Translations under genes and position numbers: made by a program
Shown: positions 2,273-29,243 of the stretch, in pieces
Layout of the letters: each line of letters opens with the position of its first letter
Position numbering within the stretch: position 1 is the first letter of the stretch
Notes under the pieces: model-generated
Database searches by the model: none
The model's input: only the letters and a program-made list of their open reading frames with translations
Told to the model about the DNA's origin: nothing
DNA from: Cloeon dipterum
Lineage: Eukaryota; Arthropoda; Insecta; Ephemeroptera; Baetidae
Length of the DNA: 64,000 nucleotides
Assembly (NCBI RefSeq): GCF_949628265.1
Contig: NC_088787.1
Coordinates: 24,914,501 to 24,978,500 of the forward strand
Reading direction: 5' to 3'

Positions 2273-3305
2273 CAAACTGGGTTCTTAAATGTACGACTTT
2301 GGCAAGAATAAACAACAAATTTTATTATCTTTTCTGCTGCCAACAGATGATAATGGAGACCGCATTTATACACGATACAAATTGTTTCTTTACTTTATCA
2401 TTTGTAGGCAGAGCCTATTTTGCTTCGATAAAATTTAATGAATGTTTTTTAAACTATTTTTTTCCATTAAGAACCAAACATTTAAAATTCATACGAAAAA
2501 GGATCGAAGCAAAAGCATTAGCTATAGGTAGCACCAGTTTTTGGATCACCTGAACTACCTTTACCCTGAGTTTTAGTTAAGTTTTTTTAGTTTAAGCTTT
2601 TTATTTTGATTAAGTCAATATTTACAGGGGCAACTTATTAAAATACGTCAATTTCTATCCTAACCTACTGATTAATAGCGATCAGGGGTTTTATTCATAC
2701 AATATGGTTTGAATAAGGAATACAAGGAATGATATATACAAATCAATTTGGTCTTATTACTACTACTTAGCCTTTAATTAATGCCAATGATTTTAATTCC
2801 ACTACATTGGTTCGTTATACGTGACTATATTTTATAGGTTATATTTTTGTTAATTTTCCTTTACAAAATTAGGCTTGACTAAAAATGTGCTTCGATGAGA
2901 AACTCACTTTTACCTTGTTCTATTTCAAATTTCTGCTACCGCAAAAATCACTTTTAAGCGAGGCAACCGGCGCATCATCGGCGTTCGGCGGACTGCATAA
3001 GTTAGTTGTTCTCATTTCAGGCGCCCATTTCAAATGCAAATAACTTTCCCCTACCTTTTTAAATTTTAGCAGGAAAAATCTAATAAAAAAATCTATTTTT
3101 TTTTGTTCAGTTTTTAAATTTGGATTTTAAACATTATACAACTTGAACGTATCTCATGAAAAGGTATTTTTAAATAATTTTTCTGAAAGGAATGACAAGA
3201 CGACTTTACGTGCTATTGATATTGAGCACTGTTCGTATGAAACAAGCAGTGCTAATAAAAATTTACAATATTATCTTTGGTATATACACGGGATTAAATA
3301 CAATT
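2273..3305. other. AT-rich interval without recognisable genes
   Basis: Open frames of 64-84 codons occur but lack any motif, composition bias or splice context that would support them. This is the 3' flank of the membrane-protein cluster. Confidence 0.6.
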
Positions 3306-4052
3306 TTAAAAATTCTTGGACCGAACTGCATCTCTGAGAGGTAAAGAATGCTCGTCATTTTTTCGGCGCCTGAAAATTTGAAGCAGAAAATAACAGCCAA
3401 AAAATAGCATTAATCCGAGTGAGAAAATTAAGAAAACGTCGAAAGAAGCGTAAGCTCTTTTTGTTCTTGCAATTGCCTCGGCGTACTTGGACAATACAGT
3501 TTGGTACGTGGGAAGCTCTTGCATACGCAGCCGGACTTGCTCGGCGGTGTTGTCATCGAGGGGCTCGATCGAAGCGTGCCCGCCGCTCAGGTCGGACACG
3601 TGAAGGAACATTTCGCACAACCACGGGAAGGACGTAACTTGGAGGAAGGTGACCTTCATTCTCTTCCATTCATCCCAAAGCACGACGCAGGTTCGACTCA
3701 CTTCCGGGCTGAACAGAATGAAGCCCTTGATCGGCACGGAATTTTGGCCTTCAGCCGTGTCTGATTGTTCCAACTCTGCATTTTCCTCCAGCGCCTCGTG
3801 CTTGTGCAGGAACCACTCTGCCGTCGTGTTATCCACGGCTTTCCAATCAGCGAGCAACATCTCGAAAAATAAGTATTTTTCTGTTTCCAAATCGGGCAGA
3901 TCTTCGTCGAAGAGGCTCCGGCCAAAAGGGAATTTAGGAATTTCCAGCCACCAGGCTTTGGCCTGCTCAATCGAGCTGCATTTTCTCTTAAAGGACGACG
4001 CTTCGGTCCAAACTCCGAGTAAAACCAGACTGGTCAATAGTACCAAATGCAT
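3306..4052 (-). CDS. Orphan type I membrane protein, cluster member 1
   Basis: A 248-residue protein of unrecognised family. It has a signal peptide (residues 1-19), an ectodomain of about 180 residues, one transmembrane helix (about 204-226), then a basic RRRK stop-transfer and a ~20-residue tail. The family signature C-x5-AKAW is at Cys25/31-34, and the second family cysteine is Cys146 in the motif LC. Cys122 is private to this copy. One NxT glycosylation site is at Asn75. Member 2 shares SPEV, VVLWDE and IEPLDD..AEQ and is its closest relative here. The coding region is uninterrupted. A splice acceptor (tttttttcag) lies 3 bp before the ATG and a strong donor (ctccag|gtaaga) at 4225/4224, implying a 169-bp intron in the 5' UTR. 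The function is unknown. The architecture suggests a cell-surface protein. Confidence 0.8.
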   Translation of the reverse strand: MHLVLLTSLVLLGVWTEASSFKRKCSSIEQAKAWWLEIPKFPFGRSLFDEDLPDLETEKYLFFEMLLADWKAVDNTTAEWFLHKHEALEENAELEQSDTAEGQNSVPIKGFILFSPEVSRTCVVLWDEWKRMKVTFLQVTSFPWLCEMFLHVSDLSGGHASIEPLDDNTAEQVRLRMQELPTYQTVLSKYAEAIARTKRAYASFDVFLIFSLGLMLFFGCYFLLQIFRRRKNDEHSLPLRDAVRSKNF

Positions 4053-4055
4053 TTT

Positions 4056-4290
4056 CTGAAAAAAATATGACCAAAATTTAATTGAAATAAAAAAATGCAG
4101 TTAAATACACGGTCAAGCTTTGACAGATGAAAGAAGCTCTCAAAATTCGTGAGGAACTCAACAACCGTTTGCTCTAGACACCCGTAAAGAATAACACTGT
4201 AAGTGAAAACAAATTATTTCTTACCTGGAGAAAGTTCAATAATGGCCTTTCTGAAACGCGGCGAAGGTGGAGAATTCAGCAGTGGATGGC
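4056..4290 (-). promoter_or_regulatory. 5' UTR intron and non-coding first exon of cluster member 1
   Basis: On the minus strand the intron runs from a ctccag|gtaaga donor (exon edge 4225) to a tttttttcag acceptor (edge 4055). The upstream exon lies within roughly 4225-4290. An aatatag motif near 4290 could be a weak TATA element. The same layout recurs in members 2 and 4, which supports it. Confidence 0.5.
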
Positions 4291-5663
4291 TATATTCGCA
4301 CTGAAGTGTTCCAAGTAATGAAAACTGTTACTGATTGAACAGTGGTCCGCGCTAAAAGCCTGTTGCTTCGATTTCATTTTGCTGCAAATAATTGAAATAG
4401 ATTATAGTCATGTTTTCATTTTTACACTTATAACAAAAATAGTAGCATAATATATTTTTAAAAAGCAATAATAAATTCAAACTAAAAGTAAAACTTCCCT
4501 GTCATTAAATTTCGTATTTTTATTTATATTAATGCACTTCTTAATCTACAAAGAACATGGAAATGGTGCTTAAATGGTCACGTTATTTTGCTGTTGGAGG
4601 AACTTTTTTATTTTCATTAAAACAGGTATGCTGAACCAGTTAATGCTGAACTCGACATGCAAATTCCTTACTCAAATTGGACTGGTTATTGTAGATGATT
4701 CGAATGAAGTGGAAATACCAGGGATTTCAAATAACCAATTTTATTTAATGAATATTATAGCTGTTATAGGCGCAGAGAGCTTGAAGAAAGAACCTCTGCA
4801 ATGGGAGAATAAGTATTACATGATTCTTATTTATGACGTAATTGAAAGTGAAGACACGGAAAAATAGCGTCAGCTTACAAACAAATGAAGCAATTTGCAG
4901 TGGCGTGTTATGTATTTTTAATTTCGAAAATAACCTGACGGAGCAATTTCATTTAATAATTTACTCTTTAGAAATTCATGTAAAATGTTGTGATTATTGC
5001 ATTTGGAAATTTCTAGAAGAAAAATATTGCAGGAAGACTTTTTCTGCCGCATTCTGTCTAACAATGATGTTTCCTGCTCCGCTTTGTACGCACAGTCTCA
5101 AAATTTGTTTTGAATTAAGCAACCAGCGCCACATCGATGCCAAGCAAACTGTATAATATGTTTCATTATTTTCAGGATTAACTAATTTATTTTATTATTT
5201 TTCAAGTATCCCACATTGATATCCGAGGTTTTAATTTATTGAGCAATTGAGATAGCAACCGCTGGTCAAAGACGCTATTTTGGCTCAGGAAATTTATTCC
5301 TTAAAAGAAAAATGCGAGACTTGTGAAAAATATCATATCCAAAAGTGTACAGCAAGAAAACTTACTTTGAGAGAAGCAGCAAAAATGTGTAAAAATTGAT
5401 TAACCTTTAGATGTAGAGTGTTGCACGCATATTTTGCGTTTAATAAACCATTAATAATAATAAAAGAAAAATGCGAAATAGTTTTAAATTGCTGTATGAT
5501 AGATACTTACATGTGATACAACACTGATTAAAACATTTTCGGGATATGAATTAAACATATAATTTTGAAGTTTCCGTTGCTTATTCTTTACACCGCGGCT
5601 GAAATGGCTTTGTTTGAATTAAAAGGCATGTTGTACTTAAATAGTTCAAGTAATTTTCATCTT
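4291..5663. other. Intergenic interval between cluster members 1 and 2
   Basis: AT-rich with no signature of the cluster family and no other recognisable protein. Plus-strand frames of 97 and 104 codons at 4574-5156 have no recognisable features and are treated as chance. Confidence 0.55.
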
Positions 5664-6437
5664 TTAATCATTCTTGGTACATTTACTCTGTTCGAATTTA
5701 GCAAAAATAGGTAAAGGAGGTCCAGGATCCTGTTCGAAATCTGGACACAACCAAAATTTGATGCGAGATAAGCAGGATCCAACGCTGAAGAACAATGCAA
5801 CAACTAGGATTAGCACAAGGAAATTGGTGCCAAAGCCGTGCGAGCTTTCGTTTATTCTGATTTCAGGTAAAGCTATTTTGTAGGAAGGCAGCAATTGTAC
5901 ACGAAGCACGATTTGCTCAGCGATGGCGTCGTCGAGGGGCTCGATCATCGCGTCTTGGCCGCCACTCAGAAGGAGGATAATTTCACACAGTGAGGCAAAC
6001 TTGATGTCTTTCAACAATGCGGCCTTCACCTCACTTTCGTCCCAAAGCACGACACTAGTGCTAAGCACTTCAGGGCTGTCTATCATAAACCCCTTTATCA
6101 TTGGCACTAATTCCCAGCTTTCATTCCCAGTCGTGTCCAATTTGGCTTTCTTTTTGAGTGCCTCAAACTGGTGCATGAACCACTTTGCTAATGGCGGCCT
6201 GTCAACAGGTGTCCAATCTTGTAGATTTAACAACTTGGGAAATATATTAGTGTTTAAGTCGGGTAGAGTCGTGTCCAAGAGATTGGAGTCGAAAAGAGTT
6301 TTGGGGACTCTAAACCTCCATGCTTTAGCCTGCGCAATCGATCTGCATTTTTCCTTGAACTTGAATAGCTGCGTCTCGGCCCCGTAGCTGATCCTTGCAA
6401 GCGAAAGAATAAGGCTGATCAACAGAAGGAGACGCAT
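5664..6437 (-). CDS. Orphan type I membrane protein, cluster member 2
   Basis: 257 residues in one coding exon. It has a signal peptide (1-19), the C-x5-AKAW signature at Cys31/37-40, conserved second cysteine Cys151 within LC, the IEPLDD..AEQ block (about 165-174), a transmembrane helix at about 205-222 and a ~35-residue proline- and cysteine-containing tail. Potential N-glycosylation sites are at Asn105 and Asn197. Similarity to member 1 runs from the signature to the membrane helix, so the two arose by tandem duplication. A 5' UTR intron is indicated by an acceptor six bases before the ATG and an aaa|gtaagt donor at 6682/6681. The family is not recognised and the function unknown. Confidence 0.8.
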   Translation of the reverse strand: MRLLLLISLILSLARISYGAETQLFKFKEKCRSIAQAKAWRFRVPKTLFDSNLLDTTLPDLNTNIFPKLLNLQDWTPVDRPPLAKWFMHQFEALKKKAKLDTTGNESWELVPMIKGFMIDSPEVLSTSVVLWDESEVKAALLKDIKFASLCEIILLLSGGQDAMIEPLDDAIAEQIVLRVQLLPSYKIALPEIRINESSHGFGTNFLVLILVVALFFSVGSCLSRIKFWLCPDFEQDPGPPLPIFAKFEQSKCTKND

Positions 6438-6442
6438 TTCTT

Positions 6443-6760
6443 CTGTAAAAGTACTCTAGTCAATTTAAAAATCGAGGGCATATATCTGAAAAAAGCTTTG
6501 AAAACCGAAATGATTGAAGTGTTCTTGAAAATTAAAAAAAAACTCACTAATTGATTATTGATTCCTCTGAATGCGCGAGATAGGTTAAAAAAAGTAACAT
6601 ATAATAGATTGTTGCTGTAAGTTAGAAGAGAGGAAGCAAGGGTTGACGCTTAATTGCATTAGGTTAGTTATCAAAACTTACTTTTTTCACAATACAAAGT
6701 ATCGCCACCAGCCTTATTCAAATAACCGCAAAGAAACCTTCGAGCCAAAAGTAGACGAGA
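6443..6760 (-). promoter_or_regulatory. 5' UTR intron and first exon region of cluster member 2
   Basis: The intron is about 239 bp, from exon edge 6682 (donor aaa|gtaagt) to exon edge 6442 (acceptor ttttacag). The transcription start is not resolved. Confidence 0.45.
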
Positions 6761-7089
6761 GCACAACTAATAATTATGGGCCACTGATTACGACTGATTG
6801 TTAACGCCACGGTTAAACTTTCAACTCGATTTGATGAACTAACGGTATAGAATTTATCGTTTTCACGGCACACATTGTTTAATAAAAAATATTTATAATA
6901 ATGTCATAGATAACACAGAGTATAATTCACCTTGTATATTAGGCATAATTAAAATTATCTGTTAAGAAGGTTTTATAAATTACTATGAGGCATTGTTTGA
7001 TAAAGTCCTGTTTTAAATATCGAACATCTCTTGATCTGTTTGCAACAACAAATTTGAGAGTGTCGTCAGCGTCAGGTTTCATAATCTAC

Positions 7090-7828
7090 CAAAAAGGAGG
7101 ATCCCAGGGAACGGAATAAATAATAGGAGTCTGCTTTATGTATGTTAGTGTGCTTTGGGAAACAAAGTCGGTATGCCCTCTCATTGCTTGCAAAAAATTC
7201 TGCTCGATTTGCTCAGCGGGCGGGGGCGTTGTCGAAGGGTTCGATTAACGTGTCTCGGTCGCCGCTCAAGGCGCCCACATACATAGGATCAGGTTGCACC
7301 AAGAATAGACTGAATATGAAACCTGAGTGACCTTCACTATCTTCCTTTCGTCCCAAAGTGCGAATCGAGCCCTGTTTATTTGTTATCATTAACCGTTTCT
7401 ATGTAAAACAAGCCTGCAGTGCCTTGCAGAGATGCACAAGCTGCTCTGCTATCGATATACGTTTTCAGCATTAACGGTGATCCAAGCAGCAAAATTAACA
7501 ATCAACACGATACATTCTATGTTTTTCAGTATAATACAGAGCTCGATCATTGTCGAAGATGCTCGATTAAATTTTGAAATTTTGCATTTGTTGCGGCTCT
7601 TTGCAACACAGCGAAACCAGAATTATCGCAAAAGTGCATTTTGCAACATTTTTAATAAAAAAAAAACGGCAGATAAGGCCGAGGACTGTCACGATAGTAT
7701 TTCAAGCCTAAATGAATTTTCACTTGGCTCATCATCATCCCATCGCATTTTCTCTTGAATTCGCGTCGGCCCCTGTACCGATCGCCCAAAGCAAAACCAG
7801 AGGCTGATCAACTCTATAGCAAACGCAT
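7090..7828 (-). pseudogene. Decayed copy of the cluster membrane-protein gene
   Basis: On the minus strand the expected start context is present (acceptor tttacag, then ATG at 7828 encoding M-R-L-L), but codon 5 is a TAG stop. Further on, ttcaagagaaaatgcgat matches the region leading to the first family cysteine of member 2. At 7165-7270 the sequence matches the AEQ/IEPLDD coding block of members 1 and 2, and at 7330-7372 the block around VVLWDE. Stops and frameshifts separate these islands, and the middle is diverged or carries foreign sequence. The retained 5' splice acceptor shows a DNA-level duplication rather than a retrocopy. Confidence 0.7.
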
Positions 7829-8785
7829 TTTTTCTGTAAATAGGGCATTTTCTGAAAAATATATTTAGTATCATATCAAACAATAAGATATGAGGGCATT
7901 ATTACCGTCAAAAATAGGAAAACAATAAAGTAGTCGAAAATCTAAGTGCTACATCTTGATTCGTAAAGGATCAACACTCTTAAAATACATTAAAATAATA
8001 AATGATTGAGTAATAAACTGCTGTTACTGTTTTTAAAATCCGAAATACACGTTTTCGATGTAATCAGCGCTATGCCTCAATGTCATTATTTCATTCAAGT
8101 CCGCGTTTTCATAAAATTAGGGGGGAAATAAGATAATTATTATATTAAGCAAACATTAAAATTGAGAAAATGTTTACTTAGAAGCTAATTAATGCGACAA
8201 TTTCCTCTCGTTGTTTTCCGTGAAGCAATTTTTTTACATTTATTCACTTTCAACACCTTTTCCCCTTATTGACTGCAGCAAGAAATTTTGACTCAACATG
8301 AATGGATATATATAAAAAGAAAAATAATGAAAAAGCGCTATAATTATACTGTCGTCTCTGACACCACGTGCCACAACATGCTCCACGCCCGTGCTACAGT
8401 TGCGGCCGCTTCAGCGCCCGCTACTACTTCAACAGAACCGTGTTCTAATTAAAAAATATATATATACGCCAAAGGTATATTTTCAGATGGCTTTAACAGC
8501 AAAATAATAATAAAACACCGAGGTTGTTGCAATTCAAAATAGTGTGCCTTCATTGTTCATAGCCTGTTCTAAAAAATGCATCGTCCACAGTAAAATGTTT
8601 TGCCTTTTGCCTTTAAAGAAAATTTAAAATAGATGACTAAAATCGAATCCTAATGTGTTGTACCATTTTTGGTTGTATGTATGTTTTTTGGGTTTCCTCT
8701 AATCAAGTAGTAAAAATGCTTCCCTTTAAATCATGCACATTTTATTATCATCAAGAAAAACACTAATTTTGATGAATTGCGCCGT
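7829..8785. other. Intergenic interval between pseudogene and cluster member 3
   Basis: No supported gene. It contains a short GC-richer patch near 8365-8430. The right end is the 3' flank of member 3. Confidence 0.5.
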
Positions 8786-9547
8786 CTAGTAAAATCGGTT
8801 ATATGGATCATTTTTTACGTTCTCAGGCCCAAAACCTTTGACAAAAACCTTTGGATTGGCCTTCCTTCTTTGCATGCACCACGAAATGCAACAAAACATG
8901 AGCCAGATAATCGCAATCACTGAGATGATAACTGATCCACAGGCAAAAATAGCCAATGGGTACTTATTTTCGATGATCCAATAGATTATAATTGTGTACA
9001 TATAAACCGTCAAATCCATGAGCAGTTGCATCACCTCAGCATCATCTCTCATCAGCGGGTGCATGATACCTTCACGTTGTTGGCCAGTAATAGACAGGAT
9101 GGCCACGTGCTCCAACATTTTGCACACAGGTTTGAAAGCTGAGTCGAACATGAAGACCTTTGCCTCATCTGACTCATCGCCCAGTAGGATAAGGTAGTGC
9201 GAGTTATTCTCTTTTGGGTTGGCCACCAGGAAGCCGTTGATCCTGTTTTCGGGTTTCTCGTTATCTACGGCGCTCGCTACCAACTTGGTCGTTGCGTATT
9301 TTTTATTGAGCCATTCGGCCAGCATCTTGTCCAGCGTAAGCGAGCGTGCATCCCCGTTCATAACCGCGCAAATTTGGTCGGTGTGTTTTCCCATCATGTC
9401 GCTCTCACAGACAAGGCTTTGGTTGAAGGGAACTGCGAGTCTCCACGCCTTCGAACCGTCCATGCGGTCGCAAGGCTCCCTTATATCCTGAGCATTGCTT
9501 CCGCAGCACGCGATCGAAACCAATCCGACCACCAACAGCCAACGCAT
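8786..9547 (-). CDS. Orphan type I membrane protein, cluster member 3
   Basis: 253 residues in one coding exon. It has a signal peptide (1-19), a C-x5-SKAWR signature at Cys26/32-35 followed by VPFN (shared style with member 4), extra cysteines at 47 and 60 that could form a private disulfide, and the conserved second cysteine Cys142. A transmembrane helix at about 198-220 is followed by FCCISWC, a cysteine-rich juxtamembrane motif typical of palmitoylated tails, then a basic ~28-residue tail. The membrane-proximal ectodomain (about 175-195) is unusually hydrophobic, so a second membrane-associated helix is possible. Potential N-glycosylation sites are at Asn42 and Asn114. The family is not recognised. 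Confidence 0.78.
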   Translation of the reverse strand: MRWLLVVGLVSIACCGSNAQDIREPCDRMDGSKAWRLAVPFNQSLVCESDMMGKHTDQICAVMNGDARSLTLDKMLAEWLNKKYATTKLVASAVDNEKPENRINGFLVANPKENNSHYLILLGDESDEAKVFMFDSAFKPVCKMLEHVAILSITGQQREGIMHPLMRDDAEVMQLLMDLTVYMYTIIIYWIIENKYPLAIFACGSVIISVIAIIWLMFCCISWCMQRRKANPKVFVKGFGPENVKNDPYNRFY

Positions 9548-10137
9548 TTTGTCTTGAACAAAACATAATTTACTTTTATTTTGGGATAATTGAATAATAA
9601 TTATGATAAGTTTTCAAAATGGTAACATGGAGTTTTAAACGTGGATCTATTAAAAAAATAATAAATCATACCGCAAAGTATATTTTAATGCTATAACTAA
9701 ATTAATCAACTTCTAATTTCTTATTAATTATCCATTCAAGTACAAATTGCAATATTTAAACAAAAACTTCATTGATGCGGACACAACTGCGTACATCAAA
9801 TAAAATCATAAGCAAGTCACAAAATGTCACAAATTTAAAAGGAATCTCAGATAAAATGAAATAAACTTCCTAGTTATAGATTTACATTTGAAATGTCACT
9901 TACTATTAACTTTTCACTGCAGCAAAAAATCCCAAAGTTTTTGACCAGAAAATATTTAAGAGATGGCTCAGAACCCAAATATTTTAACTTAATTTTCTCA
10001 TTTTAAGCTTAATTACTTTTTACTAAGCTTAATGTAATATGCTATAAATTCAGTTTCCCCATCTCAATTCTAATTTCTTTTGAAATAACAAGACTGAAAG
10101 ATTTTCCCAATAATTTAAAAAAAAGGAATACCTTACC

Positions 10138-10235
10138 TCTTCCAAAAAATTTGAATTGTTGAAAAAGCGTCGCTTTACAGACGATTGCTGAAGTGAAAGC
10201 GAAGTTAGACGCGCGTGTTAGCTATATATATAGAA
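10138..10235 (-). promoter_or_regulatory. TATA box and non-coding first exon of cluster member 3
   Basis: A TATA element (ctatatatatag on the minus strand, 10223-10233) lies about 30 bp upstream of an initiator-like tcacttcag at about 10185-10195. A donor gaagag|gtaagg occurs at 10138/10137. The likely acceptor near 9551 (ttgttcaag) is weaker than in the sister genes. This is the clearest core promoter in the cluster. Confidence 0.55.
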
Positions 10236-10239
10236 GCTG

Positions 10240-10626
10240 TTTTCTGTCAATGTTATAAATAACACGCACATTATCTATTATTTCAAGTTGAAAACCCACT
10301 GATCGATTTAAACATCGTATGGATAATTATCGCCTCCTAATTAAACAGATAAGAGCTGAGAGTGAAAATTAATAACAATGAGTGACATTTTTACTTGATT
10401 GTATATCAATTTATTGATTTTAACACCTCTGGTAATACTGTGTATGTATTCATTCTCGTAAAAGCAAGCGCAAGTTTGTTATTATTGTGTTTCTTCCATT
10501 CTTAAAAATTATTTAAATTTTGAGGAGAGTGGCAAACAATTAATCTTTCTGTAAAACGAAAACACTTTAATATCTATCAAGTTGCGAATATTGATAATTT
10601 TCATAGCTCACATCTTAATTATTAAA
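10240..10626. other. Short intergenic interval between cluster members 3 and 4
   Basis: AT-rich, no supported gene. It is the 3' flank of member 4. Confidence 0.5.
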
Positions 10627-11394
10627 TCACATTTTCTCTCGCTGTGCTATTTTCTCGTACTTTGTCGGTGTCAATTTTTTTCCGCCAATTCTGAAATCAT
10701 CGGAATAAAGGTGTTTTCCTCTCGCAGATCTCGGGCCTGAGCTGCAGCACCATTCTAGGAGGCGGTAGCAGCAGTAGAAGGCCAAAAGGATGATCAGCAG
10801 AATATTGAGAAATTCCATGACGCTCGTCCAGTATGGTCCGACCACGTCCATTGAAGTCTTGACCCAGCTGTCGAGGCGCGAGGCCAGTGGCGGCAGCTGC
10901 AGCTGGATTCGCTCGCCGGTAACCTCGTCCACCGACTGTACGCCGCTGGACGCGCGGAGCAGCTTCGAGCACAGCGCAAGGAACGAAAAGGGGAGCAGAG
11001 CAGTCCATGCGGAATCTTCCTCTCCAGTCCACGCTACGATGACGGTCTGAGAGCCGCGGGAGAGCAAAAAACCCTGCAACAGAGACACGTTCTGCCAAAC
11101 GGTGGTGTTTGTTCTCCGGTCCTTCAAGGACTCGTGCTCGTTTCTGAAGAACTCGGATAACGTTCTATTGATTGCTACTCTCTTTGTGTTAAATATTGCA
11201 GACATCTCATCAGCATGGTTTCTTAAGAGCTTATGTTTGTCATCTTGAAAGATGGTGCGGTTGAAGGGAATTTCGATTCTCCACGCCTTTGCCAGCGCCA
11301 TCCCATTACACCGTTCCTCGTAGGAGAAACTCTTGCTGCTCCCAGACCTTCCAATAATCGTCAGCAAGATGTGAAAGTACAGCCACAGCATCAT
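10627..11394 (-). CDS. Orphan type I membrane protein, cluster member 4
   Basis: 255 residues in one coding exon. It has an N-terminal signal peptide (about 1-19), a C-x5-AKAWR signature at Cys29/35-38 then IPFN, and conserved second cysteine Cys142 in LC. Four potential N-glycosylation sites are at Asn45, 76, 96 and 102. A transmembrane helix at about 193-212 is followed by YCCYRLLEWCC and a ~40-residue strongly basic tail. It is the most upstream and most diverged member and lacks the IEPLDD block of members 1-2. The coding exon is GC-richer than its flanks. An acceptor (tgctttag) lies two bases before the ATG, and a donor (aag|gtatgt) at 11724/11723 marks a 5' UTR intron. Confidence 0.78.
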   Translation of the reverse strand: MMLWLYFHILLTIIGRSGSSKSFSYEERCNGMALAKAWRIEIPFNRTIFQDDKHKLLRNHADEMSAIFNTKRVAINRTLSEFFRNEHESLKDRRTNTTVWQNVSLLQGFLLSRGSQTVIVAWTGEEDSAWTALLPFSFLALCSKLLRASSGVQSVDEVTGERIQLQLPPLASRLDSWVKTSMDVVGPYWTSVMEFLNILLIILLAFYCCYRLLEWCCSSGPRSARGKHLYSDDFRIGGKKLTPTKYEKIAQREKM

Positions 11395-11396
11395 AC

Positions 11397-11850
11397 CTAA
11401 AGCAAAGTAGTTTCTGATTCTTTTGAAATCTTGCTTTTTAAAAAAATGATTTTATTGCCGTATTTTTAAAAACTAAAAAAAATTAGTAAATAAAAGCCTT
11501 AGTGATTTTAAATTTTCCTATGATATTTCAGATTATAAAAGACATCCAGACTCTTTCACATTTTGCATAGATCTACTACCTCGTATAAATTTGCCAAACA
11601 AACTTAATTTTTAAAAGTGCTTTTTGTCCTTAAATTATGCATACACTTATTAGCGGAAGTTGCATTCTAGTTGAAAACAAAAATCAAGCTAAAAGCTTTT
11701 TGCTATATATCTTCACAACATACCTTAAAAATATCCAGAAAGGAGATCAGTTTCCGCTCCTGGTTCTTCTAAAAGTTAACTCTCCGTTTGACTGACTGAA
11801 CAGACCCACGTATGGCTAGAAAGGGCTATTTTCATAATTCTCGTGTTGTT
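11397..11850 (-). promoter_or_regulatory. 5' UTR intron, first exon and promoter region of cluster member 4
   Basis: The intron is 327 bp (exon edges 11724 and 11396). The upstream exon probably begins at the initiator-like ttcagtcagtc near 11795 on the minus strand. An AT-rich stretch lies about 30 bp further upstream, but no clean TATA box is seen. Confidence 0.45.
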
Positions 11851-12734
11851 AAAAAACGTGGAGTTCATTACTGATTTAAAGGCTATTACGTAAGTTTTTT
11901 AAAAGTTAAGTAACGATGTCATTTTAATTTTTGCTAAAGTTGGTGTCTCAAAAAGATCATCATCAAGCAGGCGGCAGAGCAGAAGATTAAAGCAGAATAT
12001 ATTTAATTTATTTTTTTATTGTCTTTCAAAGAAGCACAAGGAGAGCATGATTATTATATAGCTTTTTTAAATACGTGGCAATGCACACTCGCGTTAAAAC
12101 TTATATTATATTGTCAAGCTCATGCGCCTTGTGTAGGAAAGGAAACTGTGCCGCCTAACACTCCTATCGTGCGGGTGGCATAGTCGTCAATATTTACTCT
12201 CACAATACAAAAAATAACGTTTTAGTGTCATGACCAGCAAAACACATTTTTGCCAAGTTTGATTTTAGCAGGCTGCTGCACAGGCGTTGATGGCAAATCA
12301 ATACATGCATGTAGATTGTAGGAGGCACGTCTGGTATGATGTCTCTGGCACCCTCGCTCGCGTTGTCGCGCAAAGTATTTTATCTGCAACTTGTTTCTCA
12401 TGCGAATGCAGGTTGATAATATTGATTGAAATTAGGTATTCAGCACTTCAATATTTGTTTTATTTTTGTTATTGCTGGGTGTGCTTTATTGAACTTAATG
12501 AGCTACACAGTCTGGAATTAGGCATTATCCTAATCACTGAAAGATTAAATAGAAAATAATGTGTGGGAAAACGATTGATTGCTTTTAAATGAACAACAAA
12601 TAGCCCACGTGTTTTTAATACAAAATTTGGAAACATCTTATTCATAGGCGAATGAATTTGATTTATAATTAAATATATGATACAAATTTGCGAAACACGG
12701 TGGGCAAAAAAGTGCGCATTTTCAGGTCACTCAT
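11851..12734. other. Intergenic interval between membrane-protein cluster and fibrinogen-domain gene
   Basis: No recognisable gene. A plus-strand 90-codon frame at 12287-12559 has no supporting features. Confidence 0.5.
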
Positions 12735-15700
12735 TCATGAGCCATGGAAGTCCAACGGACGGATTTTCATCTCTGTCCCAGCAAGGCTGTAGTCATCTCG
12801 CCATTTTTCCCAGATGATCCCCTGGAAGTCGGTTGCTCCCTCCGGATCCAGGAAGTACTCGCCATTCAGATTTGCCTCAAAACAGCTACATTGAGATTTT
12901 AAACTATGCCAAATTTAACATAAAATCATACCTGTGAAACCACCATCCGCTGGAGTACGTTTTGGCACAAGGACAGCATTCGGGCGCCTTGTCGTTTGTG
13001 CGATCGATCGTACTGAAAGGCGTGCCGTTGTGGGAACTGAACGAGTCAGACGCGTTGCCTGAGTAGCCGGCTAGTGTAAGACGGTAGTTGGTCTTCTCAG
13101 AACCCACCCTGAACAATGAATACTCGGCGAACCTATTAAAAAAATAATCAAGAAGGAAAATTGATTAAAAAATGCTGTCTACAGATTTGAGGAACTATCA
13201 AAATATTAAAATCTCATAGCCACTTTAAAATTATTAGGTTTTAGGAGTCAAAAAATCTTTTTCACCAAAGGCTAGAGCGAAACACAATTGAATTTTTGAA
13301 TTCAAAAGTTGATATGCTTGTGACTCGGGAAGAGACTGATTTTAATTTTATATTCAGATTTTATAATTAAAACAAAAACTTTCTTATGACAATTCGCTTT
13401 TACTTTTTTATATTTAATAATGAGTAAATTAGAATTGTGATAATAATGATATCCTGAAATATTTATGTTATAGCAGCACAAAACGTTTGATTTTCAAACA
13501 AAAATCCGGCATTTTAATTTATCATGAATAAAAAAATTTACAAATTTTGCTTTAACTTATGCAATCAGTATTGTGGCATTTGAGAATCAATTTTGTGCTT
13601 ACGTTTTGTTTCCTTCAAAGTCTTTCAATTCGATTCTGAGTTTAACTGGTCGGTCACCCGAGGTGACAAGGTGCAGAAAATCATTGCCGGCCCAAAACTC
13701 AGCGTTAAGGTCACCAAAGCCGCGTTTGTAGTCAGTCCAGCGGCGCGTGAAGTTCTCCAGGCGGCCGTTGAAGTTGCCCCTGCGCTGCACCACGGTCCAT
13801 CCTCCTCCTGCCGTCTGCTGGTCGCAGAAGAGGCGCTCACGCTGGCCACCTCCGTCCCACTCGGAGACGACGGGGGCGGTCGCCTCCTCTTCCTCTCGGT
13901 CGCCCAACAAACTGGTCACCCCGGACGGTCCGTTCACGTCGCTGCACAGCCACTGGAAGCGTTTGCCTCGACCAGTGCTTGGCTGGCTGGTGAGGGGCAC
14001 CGACGACTGTGTGCTCACGTCCTCGTAGTCCAGTAGGTTTGACGAGTCGGAAAAATCTTGCTCCTCGGCGTCCACTACTAGGGACTATAAAGCAAAATAA
14101 GTCAAAAAAGGGGACGTTAAATTTCAATTCCTGTGATTTTATTTTATGAAAAGAAAAAATATCAGAAATATTGCAAATAATGGCTCTTCTCTGTACGGAA
14201 ATTAAGTTTTCCTTGCTTTAAGTTATTTTTAATTTTAAAAGTTAACAAACATACACAATTTCCTGAAATTTTATAAGTCGATTTAACTGTCGAAAAAGTA
14301 AACATATAGCTAAGCAATTTAGTAATTAAAATTTATATAATATCTCATAATTAGACAAATATTGTGAAAATATACGCCTACATTTAAAATCAGAAAATTT
14401 GATTTTGCTTTTTAAAAATTCATGATTTTGCTAAATATTATTTGAGATATGTCGTTTTTGAACCACACGAACCAATTTTTGAGAGATTATAAGACTTGAA
14501 AAAAATTTAATGCGAAGATTTTTGATTAAACTCATTCTTTCTAATAATTTTTATAAATTAAATTTCTTCTTTTTGACATTTGTGTAAAAAAAATAACGTT
14601 GATTAGATTTTCCAGACTATGTTATGCCTTATAATTACTGTTAAATACATATACCTATGGAAATCGGACTCACGGGGCTCTCATTGGGGCAACTGGCATT
14701 GTAGGCAATGTTGTCGAGGATGAGATCCTCGAGGTGCTCAATTTCCTGGCTGGCATTGGCGAAGAGGTCGCGCATGTTGCGCAGAGACGTTTCTGTGCCC
14801 GCGGAAACGGCCGCGATGCACGAGTTAGTTGAGCGCACGCTGGCGTTGTGGGTCTCCTCTCGCAATTTTCGACAACACTCCGACCCCTGAAAATATTTAA
14901 GATTAATAGAGAAAAATTTCAAGCATGGAAAATTGGAAAAAGCTTACAATCGTTCTTTCTTTTCTAAATTTAGTTTTATCATCAGATTTTTATTCAACAT
15001 CTTTGTTTATTGCTCGATATTAATTATTAGTTGAGATTGGAGCAGCAAGACAAAAATGGAATTTAAAAGCCACAGTATACCTGAGCAGCATATCGCAGTG
15101 TGTGATTGGCGACCCTGAGCAGGTGGTCGTGACCCTTCTTGAGCTGGACGTTCGTGTCTTCAGCGCTTCTGACGGCTCGCTCGACACTCTCTAACGCCCT
15201 CCAGGTTCTCCGCAGAGGTGAGGCCATGCGGCGCCATACCCTCAGGTCGCCCCCGCGAATTTCTGCCTCGCCCTGGATAGTTAAAAGTCAGCAGCTGTCT
15301 TCTTGCATTATAAAAGAGAAGAATAAAGCACCTCTTCTGGCAGCCGGTCGAAAATGACGTCCACTTTTGAAGCGACATCCTGTAAGAGAGCTTCCAGAAC
15401 TGACGGTGCCTGGCACTTATGCGCCGAGTTTTTCTCCAGCAGCTTCTCTTCAGCTTTGGCTTGCGCAACCAGCTTGTCTACCTTCTTCTCTATCCCCTGA
15501 AATAGTTTAAGGCTTTTATATCCAAAAGATTATCTTACTAGACGACCAAAAACTTTTAAATTTGCTAAAAACATGGAATTTTTCAAAATGAGTAATTTGT
15601 GAGCGTTATTATTAAATTTTTAACAATTTTTTTCTATTTTCAAAGTATGGGATAAAATGTTGCCCTCATTGTATTAAACATTCATAAAAATTTTCAGGAA

Positions 15701-26700: not shown

Positions 26701-29243
26701 CAAATATGTCAACTGGAATCGTGACCCATTGCCCCATTTTTTGTTAGAAATATGGTGTCTCTATTGTGAACAAGAAGCAACCGCTGCTGATGGCACACAT
26801 CCTAAGTGAGGGAAAAGAAAAATCTGTAGTGTATCTTGTGCCTGAGCTGTGCTACCTCACTGGCTTCACGTCCGAGAATCGAAGGGACTTCTTCTTGATG
26901 AGGAACATTTATGACGAAATCTCCACCACGCCAAAAGTTGGCCAGCTGAAAGTTGGCCAGTTCGTCAAAACATTTTCCGAAGCCAAGAATGAAAAAGTAG
27001 GTGCAATCGCTGACAATTTTTTTAAATTATATTCACCACGAATTATCATCGCTGCGCAGGTACAAGAAATTTTGCGAGAGTGGAAATTGTCCTTTGGCAG
27101 CGAGATGGTCAGTTTCAAGGGACGACACCTGCCGGCCGAGCTGGCAAAGGTTCGCAGTGGACGCAACCCAAGTAGCGCCCGCAACCTCTTCGACTGGTCC
27201 GAGGACTTCCGCAGTACATATTCGCAATTTTTCCATAATTCACTTGACCATCAACCCTCTTTCTCACCCTCCAGCGTACCGAATGCTGCACTGCATGCCG
27301 ATCAAGAAGTGGGCCGTGTTGGTGCCCGCGCAGCATGTCAAGGCAAGCGACCGGTTCATTATATGTCTGCAGTCGACCTGCGCCGCGCTGGGCATCACCC
27401 TGGCCAAACCGTTCATCATACAAATCGAGTCTGACGAAGTCAACTGTTACCTGCGCGAACTGAAGAAGCTGTTCGCCAAGGAGAGGCCGCAAATCGTCGT
27501 TTTTATCTTGGCCTGTAACCGCAAGGACAAGTACAGCGCCATTAAGAAGTACTGCACCGTCGAACATGGAGGTTATTCCAATTCCAATTCGAAAATAAGA
27601 ATTTTTAACCAGAAATTAAGATAATAATATTTGTAGATTATTTCTAACGCTGGAACTCCTTTACTATTATGGAAAGAGTTATTATTTTATCATTTGCACA
27701 TTTTTAAAACGCATTTTTAGGAAAATAACTTTATTTGCCGCTTTTTTTAGACTAACCAATCTAAAGTGATTTCTTGCGCACTTACATGTTCAAAATGGCC
27801 CACTATGTGTTAAAACTTAGCTCAGGTTAACAAATCTGAAGTTTGCCAAATTTAATGCAACTTGTTATGCTATGGAAATCTCATCCTAAAATGTAAAATA
27901 ACTTAGTTTAAATTGTGCAACACGTATTCTACAATTGGTTTGAAATACTATGCCCATGAATTAATGAAAATGTAAAATTGTAGTTGCAAGTCAAGTGCTG
28001 ACAGTGAAGAGCATGGACCAGAAGTACGACTTCCCCGTGGCGAAGCGTTTGGCTGTGCAGCTGAACTGCAAGGTGGGTGGCACGCCATGGAGCGTGGAGG
28101 TGCCGCTAACGCTGGGCATGGTGATCGGAGTGGACATGAGCGTGGATACGCGCAACCGCAACTCCACCTTCTGCAGCGTGGTGGCCTCGTTCGACAGCGA
28201 CTTCTCGCGCTTCCATTCCGCCACCTTTGAGTTTGCCACTGGCGATTTTGAGCAGATGAGCGTGCAGCTGTGCGAGCATGTGACCATGGCACTGCAAAAC
28301 TTCAAGCTGCAGCACCACAACCTGCCCAAGGTCATCATTCTTTACCGCGACGGGGTCGCCAACCGAAAGCTGCAGCACATTTTCCACAGGGAGTTGCCGC
28401 TCATGCAGGTGCGTGAACTGCTTTCCATTTTTTTCCACATATTAAAATGCTGAATCAATATCAGAGCAACATTTTCAAATTATTTTAGTGGAGGATAAGA
28501 GCAAAGAAATGGACTTTCTATTTAATTTTTGGTGAGCTTTCCTATATTTATCTTAATAGCAACAACTATTGTATCTTGAATTTTTTAACTTATTTCATCC
28601 CAGTACGCCTGTTTTCCCAATTTGTTCATTCCTGATTAAATATAATCAGAGAGCAGTTAAAGAACTTCTCAAACCTGAAATTACTGGTCTTTGGCACTTT
28701 GTGATTGCAGAAATGGCTGAATGAAGTCTACAAAGGCAGTGAATGGCGGCTGACCTACGTTGTGGTCAATAAGCACAGCAACACCAAAATTTACGCCAAC
28801 GGAAACGCCAACCCGCCGACAGGAACGGTCGTTGACACTTGCATCACGAATCCTGACAGGTTTGAAGTTCTATTCTTTCTTTTTATTTCTTTATTCTCTT
28901 AACATGTTTTCTTGCCAGGTACGATTTCTTGTTACTGAGCGGCCAGACCCAGCGCAAGGCGGCTAGTTTCACCCACTACAACGTGCTCTTCGACAACACC
29001 AGTCTCACCCCAGATCGATTGCAGAGGCTCACGTACAAGATGACTCATCTCTACTTCAACATGAAGGTAATCTAATTAACCTAATCCCTGTGTGATAGTT
29101 AAAACAATGATTTGGTCCATTTTCAGGGTACTGTTCGTGTGCCCGCCCCTCTGCGTTACGCATCACGCCTCGTCGCTGTTGTAAGCAACATTTTGCACAA
29201 GCCACCACATCCCAACTTGAGCGATGTCCTGCATTTCCTTTAA
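23763..29243 (+). CDS. Piwi-clade Argonaute with altered slicer triad
   Basis: Thirteen exons: 23763-23987, 24347-24545, 24597-24890, 25455-25666, 25723-25902, ~26062-26391 (start could be 26080), 26748-26996, 27060-27213, 27275-27571, 27984-28408, 28711-28859, 28919-29066, 29127-29243. Phases join to about 992 residues. Order: a proline-rich N-terminal region (1-240) without RG repeats, N/L1 region from GTVLTLHANFFPV, PAZ (about 380-500), MID (about 620-715) with the 5'-phosphate pocket pattern Y..IKK...SQV, and PIWI ending LHFL. Piwi-clade signatures include SFTHYNVLFDN and LQRLTYKMTHLYFN. Catalytic aspartates are present in GVD (Asp764) and YRDGV (Asp836), but the motif normally YAHKL reads YASRL (Ser967). 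Piwi proteins bind piRNAs and silence transposons. Upstream sequence is open in frame, so the true start may lie in an earlier exon. Confidence 0.88.

Follow-up and report, generated by a model that had tools for sequence, protein, structure and literature searches.

We analysed a 64,000-nucleotide stretch of the genome of the mayfly Cloeon dipterum (assembly GCF_949628265.1, contig NC_088787.1, here C2, positions 24914501–24978500; the window) together with 190 Mb of the same genome in 10 contigs. As proposed in an earlier note on this DNA, the minus strand of the window carries a tandem array of four intact genes, each with a single coding exon, and the relic of a fifth. The open reading frames (ORFs) are W1 (window positions 3306–4052, 248 residues), W2 (5664–6437, 257 residues), W3 (8786–9547, 253 residues) and W4 (10627–11394, 255 residues), and the broken relic on the same strand (7202–7864) is supported by four blastn pieces (7202–7268, 7327–7358, 7801–7840 and 7845–7864) that match W1 or W2 (E 6.6e-9 to 5e-4, in a small search space). 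Stops are present in all three frames of the relic region, which tblastn with all family proteins does not detect at E≤0.05. The constant order of parts described in the note is evident in all four intact copies, each with a hydrophobic, signal peptide-like start, the motif C-x5-[AS]KAW, a GF pair, an [LV]C, a single strongly hydrophobic segment close to the C-terminus and a short tail. The tryptophan comes after eight residues beyond the first cysteine and the [LV]C lies 113–121 residues past it, which bears out the claimed pair of conserved cysteines. The best 19-residue transmembrane (TM) stretches map to 3381–3437 in W1, 5766–5822 in W2, 8900–8956 in W3 and 10756–10812 in W4, all on the minus strand. 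Identity of the other three copies to W1 is 45, 29 and 27%, and the note's tandem duplication and strong divergence between copies are both supported. The likeness of the copies is not fortuitous: in whole-genome searches the four recover one another at E 2.9e-5 to 2.9e-37, except that W2 and W3 show no mutual recovery at E≤10.

The array is real but represents only part of a much larger family, with 10 further intact paralogues, two truncated copies and several relics elsewhere in the genome. A fifth gene on C2 (C2u, 24867520–24868290, plus strand) lies some 50 kb away from the array. On C1 there are eight intact genes (five in tandem at 40.653–40.662 Mb, two at 40.15 Mb and one at 42.08 Mb) and on C3 there is one, at 7.43 Mb, such that the family is both tandem and dispersed over three contigs. 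These short-family proteins have 204–257 residues, with an ectodomain of about 150–180. The 14 intact members were used for the alignment and profiles, leaving out the truncated copies C1i_tr and C1j_tr and not counting relics. Invariant columns include C29, W38, P43, G108, F109 and C142 (W4 numbering), and the core common to all 14 is C-x8-9-W-x3-[IV]P, GF and C. The C-x5-[AS]KAW motif, which the note had taken to define the family, is instead local to the window, since [AS]KAW occurs in four of the 14 rows scanned (the C3 member was checked by eye), all of them the window genes. Exactly two cysteines lie between signal peptide and TM helix in nine of 13 full-length members scanned (exceptions W1, W3, C1b and C1g), and also, by eye, in the C3 member; some members have a cysteine at the membrane. 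The two-cysteine pattern of the ectodomain fits the disulfide proposed earlier, which the two conserved cysteines presumably form. A truncated copy on C1 (42.086 Mb; L049 6276–6683) is nearly identical to an intact copy about 2 kb away (3755–4369), with dN 0.012 and dS 0.073 (nonsynonymous and synonymous divergence) over 106 codons. Next to C1 members or relics, C2H2 zinc-finger ORFs recur (L048 4503–5003, L050 573–1373 and L055 5050–5874 by Pfam; L025 2483–3076 by eye), and two similar unassigned ORFs recur at L048 6692–7057 and L050 8263–8697, as if all had been duplicated together as one module.

Searches for known domains bear out the note's description of an unrecognised family of membrane proteins, in that neither Pfam nor the PDB yields a convincing match. 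Pfam gave nothing above cut-off for W1–W4 and, over the 14 members, eight weak matches only (best E 0.0099, in one member); the Baculo_F model (PF12259) matches none of the 14 at E≤0.1. Two profile searches of the PDB found nothing credible (best E 1 in the first and 0.024 in the second), the matches lying mostly in TM and Cys-rich tails and being taken as chance. The KAW motif suggested a possible resemblance to TREM/CD300-like immunoglobulin (Ig) receptors, but an Ig V-set domain was rejected, with no Ig model in Pfam and no Ig-named entry among the listed PDB profile matches (60 of 68). Scans of IMG/VR, run with one of the F-like proteins described below and with the alignment of the four window proteins, detected no relative, and a PDB sequence search with the F-like protein F56 found no match at E≤1.

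The same genome contains long F-like genes of the envelope (Env) kind represented by Iris, errantivirus Env and baculovirus F. A weak family match at C2:5031126 (E 0.005) falls inside a 606-codon frame, the remainder of which matches Baculo_F at 4.6e-16, and a genome search with Baculo_F yields nine loci at E≤0.01, eight of them over cut-off. Frames that include an N-terminus come from five of them (F56, 645 residues; F57, 575; F58, 484; F59, 596; F64, 402); the loci L060–L063 lack a complete N-terminus and are not in the profiles. These F-like proteins display G-x8-W-x3-[IV]P where the short family has C-x8-9-W-x3-[IV]P. Three Baculo_F genes are clustered within about 15 kb at C2:5017724–5032913 (L057, L058 and L059/L046; frames of 575, 484 and 596 residues), with pairwise ratios of nonsynonymous to synonymous divergence (dN/dS) of 0.80 and 0.87 for two pairs, and form an Iris-like cluster in their own right. 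The 645-residue gene (L056 1438–3372; C2:22.77 Mb) is preceded, about 0.8 kb upstream, by an ORF (72–632) that ends in a CCHC-like knuckle and is gag-like by eye with no Pfam match; this copy may therefore still sit in the remains of a provirus. L060 (C2:1.25 Mb) and L061 (C4:12.79 Mb) are near-identical partial Baculo_F loci beside an ORF that looks integrase-like by eye, that of L060 giving no Pfam match. From these two loci, the genome may hold recent env-bearing retroelements.

Profile comparison shows homology between the first ~60 mature residues of the short proteins and the F2 (N-terminal) end of the Baculo_F proteins in the same genome. The short profile, built from the 14 proteins without signal peptides, matches F59 at 1.5e-6, F56 at 6.9e-5, F58 at 1.8e-4 and F57 at 0.034, so that four of the five F-like proteins beat the best of 4100 shuffles (0.31), and none of 273 window decoys appears among the 41 matches listed. 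Conversely, with the F-like profile nine of the 14 short proteins outscore all shuffles, the best of which reaches 0.29; the top short protein is W4 at 2.5e-5. Aligning the two profiles directly with hhalign yields, over 64 columns, a probability of 88, an E of 3.1e-6 and a score of 50.8, which none of 300 column shuffles reaches (maximum 21.2). In single-sequence searches of the whole genome, the 111-residue N-terminus of F59 finds 13 loci at E≤10 and nothing else: six F-like, one of which is classed by its position beside a Baculo_F match, and seven of the short family (E 0.0012–0.58). Without its signal peptide it finds seven, the six F-like loci and C2u (E 0.84), and the N-terminus of C2u similarly treated finds four, namely itself, W4 (0.0016), F59 (0.61) and C1e (1.1). 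The homologous segment corresponds to minus-strand positions 3768–3992 in W1 (residues 21–95, the hhalign range) and, approximately and by alignment, to 6147–6359 in W2, 9278–9484 in W3 and 11116–11322 in W4, the last being the best match to the F-like profile in the window. Where the earlier note knew no family with the array's signature, the N-terminal ~60 mature residues are thus tied to Baculo_F and Iris-type envelope-derived genes.

The segment appears native to the F-like proteins. Full-length matches to Baculo_F begin at profile positions 28–31, and removing the N-terminus lowers the match by 18 bits for F56, 11 for F57 and 10 for F59, which are three of the four F-like proteins tested (the fourth being F64). 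The more likely direction is therefore that the short family descends from F. For the second half of the short proteins no homology to F1 could be demonstrated, and the furin site, fusion peptide and F1 ectodomain have no counterpart in the alignment of the short family with the F-like proteins. A model in which the C half is the F1 end with its TM helix, brought close by internal deletion, was hinted at by a collinear second hhalign match (P 0.02) and by the shuffles that include the TM helix, but it was rejected because the signal is lost when the TM helix is excluded.

A second feature is found in both gene sets. Of 21 genes examined, 14 have, under a strict rule, a pyrimidine-rich CAG or TAG 2–7 nucleotides before the ATG (12 of the 16 short genes, one truncated copy included, and two of the five F-like genes), as compared to 134 of 1399 background ATGs. 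By eye, a CAG or TAG within 12 nucleotides of the ATG is seen in 19 of the 21, the exceptions being W3 and the truncated C1i_tr. On the minus strand of the window these splice acceptor-like sites are a CAG 3 nucleotides before the W1 ATG (4056–4058) and a TAG 2 nucleotides before that of W4 (11397–11399), together with a CAG 5 nucleotides before the W2 ATG (6443–6445), which was assigned by eye and fails the strict pyrimidine rule. The genes therefore probably have introns in the 5′ leader and are single-coding-exon but not necessarily single-exon. Since gypsy env is reported to come from a spliced mRNA (PMC4276936), an acceptor before the ATG may be an inheritance of an env-derived gene. In the near-identical pair at L049, the truncated copy has CAT where its intact neighbour has CAG before the ATG.

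Reading frames are intact in all 14 members, as expected of maintained host genes, and the rate at which the proteins change differs between clusters. The window pair W1/W2 is under purifying selection (dN/dS 0.28, with a near-saturated dS of 1.86), and the W1 frame stayed open in none of 4000 random-substitution runs over the 317 differences separating the two. The C1 and F-like genes change fast, and the F-like frames are kept open. For the C1 tandem the pairwise dN/dS is 0.52–1.51 (10 pairs) and the best grid omega (dN/dS) is 0.85 in the N part and 1.5 in the C part; the departure from 1 is significant in neither part (twice the log-likelihood difference 0.71 and 2.75, respectively). An omega above 1 in the C part is suggestive only, and frame retention under neutrality is moderately unlikely (probability 0.03–0.21 in the five of 10 pairs tested). 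Among F57–F59 the best omega is 1.0, with the frame kept in one and none of 4000 neutral runs. The fast evolution claimed in the earlier note is seen in the C1 tandem, with dN/dS near 1, whereas the window pair W1/W2 is constrained.

Taken together, we favour, at about even chances, the reading that the short genes form a host family whose small type I membrane proteins go back to the F2 end of an F-type envelope. The F2 N-terminal end would have been retained, and the furin site, fusion peptide and F1 ectodomain, all absent from the short proteins, would have been lost. The F2-like segment is followed by a second module bearing the conserved GF and Cys and then by one TM helix. Such a protein would reach the cell surface or reside in the secretory pathway, where it might interfere in trans, either by occupying an Env receptor or by mis-assembling with the F-type Envs of errantiviruses or other viruses. 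Interference of this kind would block entry or cell-to-cell transfer, and the copies would diversify as their targets change. The near-identical partial Baculo_F loci are a possible target. Envelope co-option is well documented in vertebrates, and a decoy role is plausible by analogy; of the recognition, immune or reproductive roles that the array may have, interference with viral envelopes is the best-motivated version. The fullest form of this proposal, a lineage-specific germline repertoire of membrane-anchored 'decoy F2' genes, multiplied to over a dozen loci on three contigs, with their own two-Cys module, a diversified second half and an antiviral interference function, is offered tentatively, and we consider it doubtful as a whole. 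If the derivation is correct, it would show how an F-type Env can lose fusion and be reused as a multi-locus, N-terminal-only family, and the short genes would provide candidates in which interference with errantiviruses or other F-bearing viruses can be tested. The presence of the long F-like genes in the same genome makes parent-type and truncated forms directly comparable.

Several observations weigh against an envelope origin or its proposed function. The homology spans only ~60 residues, single-sequence E-values are weak, and the first Cys of the short family is Gly in the F-like proteins. F64 (0.52) falls within the shuffle range of the short-profile test and loses no Baculo_F bits without its N-terminus, nor do the N-termini of F56 and F59 match Baculo_F in isolation. 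With the reverse profile, five of the 14 short proteins do not stand out (C1b and W1, and W3, C1g and C3, which are not among the matches listed), while the C1e N-terminus without signal peptide gives 16 genome matches, of which none is F-like and one (E 3.0) is unassigned. No link between the C half and F1 is seen when the TM helix is excluded, since 240 of 798 shuffles attain the same score; with it included, none of 300 do, but barely (18.7 versus 18.5). AF2 models are poor, with a mean predicted local distance difference test score (pLDDT) of 56.8 and 54.8 for two models, and a BFVD search found nothing at E≤0.001. Finally, the C-part omega of the C1 tandem drops to 0.87 when three more divergent C1 copies are added.

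Alternatively, the genes might form a host recognition family, immune or reproductive, unrelated to envelopes, its N-terminal likeness being a convergence of signal peptide and W-x3-[IV]P strand. In favour of this, the similarity is short, Baculo_F matches no member, the C half is unlinked to F1 and the C1e search finds no F gene. We consider this unlikely, because the likeness stands out in shuffle controls run without signal peptides, the F59 N-terminus matches no non-kin locus in 190 Mb and the acceptor before the ATG is found in both gene sets. It is similarly improbable that the genes are Env-derived but serve reproduction or cell–cell contact rather than an antiviral role. Co-opted envelopes serve placental fusion in mammals, and a dN/dS near 1 in the C1 tandem fits reproductive proteins equally, but the fusion parts are absent, making fusion itself unlikely. 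The reverse direction, in which an older host gene, the short family, supplied the F-like genes with their N-terminus, accords with the greater number of short-family copies in this genome and is nevertheless very improbable given that, of the four F-like proteins tested, three owe part of their Baculo_F match to the segment. Least probable of all, the genes could be small TM proteins carried by retroelements (sORF2/FAST-like) rather than settled host genes, as short TM proteins have been reported from retrotransposons of insects (PMC11952523) and some members have the membrane Cys, but a signal peptide and an ectodomain of ~150–180 residues argue otherwise, as does the absence of gag or pol beside the array, where the four genes are the only ORFs of at least 160 residues in window positions 2500–12500 (long terminal repeats were not searched for).

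Comparison with known systems places the short family closest to Env-derived genes. With Baculo_F and errantivirus Env it shares the N-terminal ~60 mature residues, the signal peptide and the type I topology, and its acceptor before the ATG fits the spliced mRNA of gypsy env; it differs from Baculo_F in its size (204–257 versus 484–645 residues for F56–F59) and in having no furin site, fusion peptide, F1 ectodomain or Pfam match. Iris of Drosophila, which keeps the Env architecture and for which a 2005 paper by Malik and Henikoff reportedly gives positive selection in its title, is likewise an Env-derived host gene, whereas the short family keeps the N-terminal end only, with a two-Cys ectodomain in multiple copies, and the full Env architecture was not found. 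PMC7231272 names one domesticated env for Drosophila, Iris. Refrex-1 of cats, described in PMC5923473 as a truncated Env that interferes with receptors, is also an N-terminal Env fragment with a signal peptide. However, it derives from a gammaretroviral surface subunit, is secreted without a TM helix and has a measured antiviral action, which for the short family is a proposal. HERV-T Env is reported to block infection by receptor depletion (PMC5388530). The sORF2/FAST-like proteins are also small TM proteins, but are encoded by retrotransposons. Among the titles listed in the literature searches, none concerns a truncated family of F-type Envs in insects, and the portion of PMC6085415 available, on silkworm endogenous retroviruses and env genes, has neither the word 'truncated' nor the word 'receptor'.

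Two further genes of the window lie near the array. A Fibrinogen_C domain exon (PF00147, E 5.9e-23; 13599–14075, minus strand) adjoins it and belongs to a fibrinogen-related protein gene. About 15 kb away, PAZ (below cut-off) and Piwi domain exons (26766–28453, plus strand) mark a Piwi-clade gene; the best solved matches of the Piwi-domain exon are 'Piwi-like protein Siwi' and 'Protein piwi', the silkworm and fly proteins, which suggest an insect-like host.

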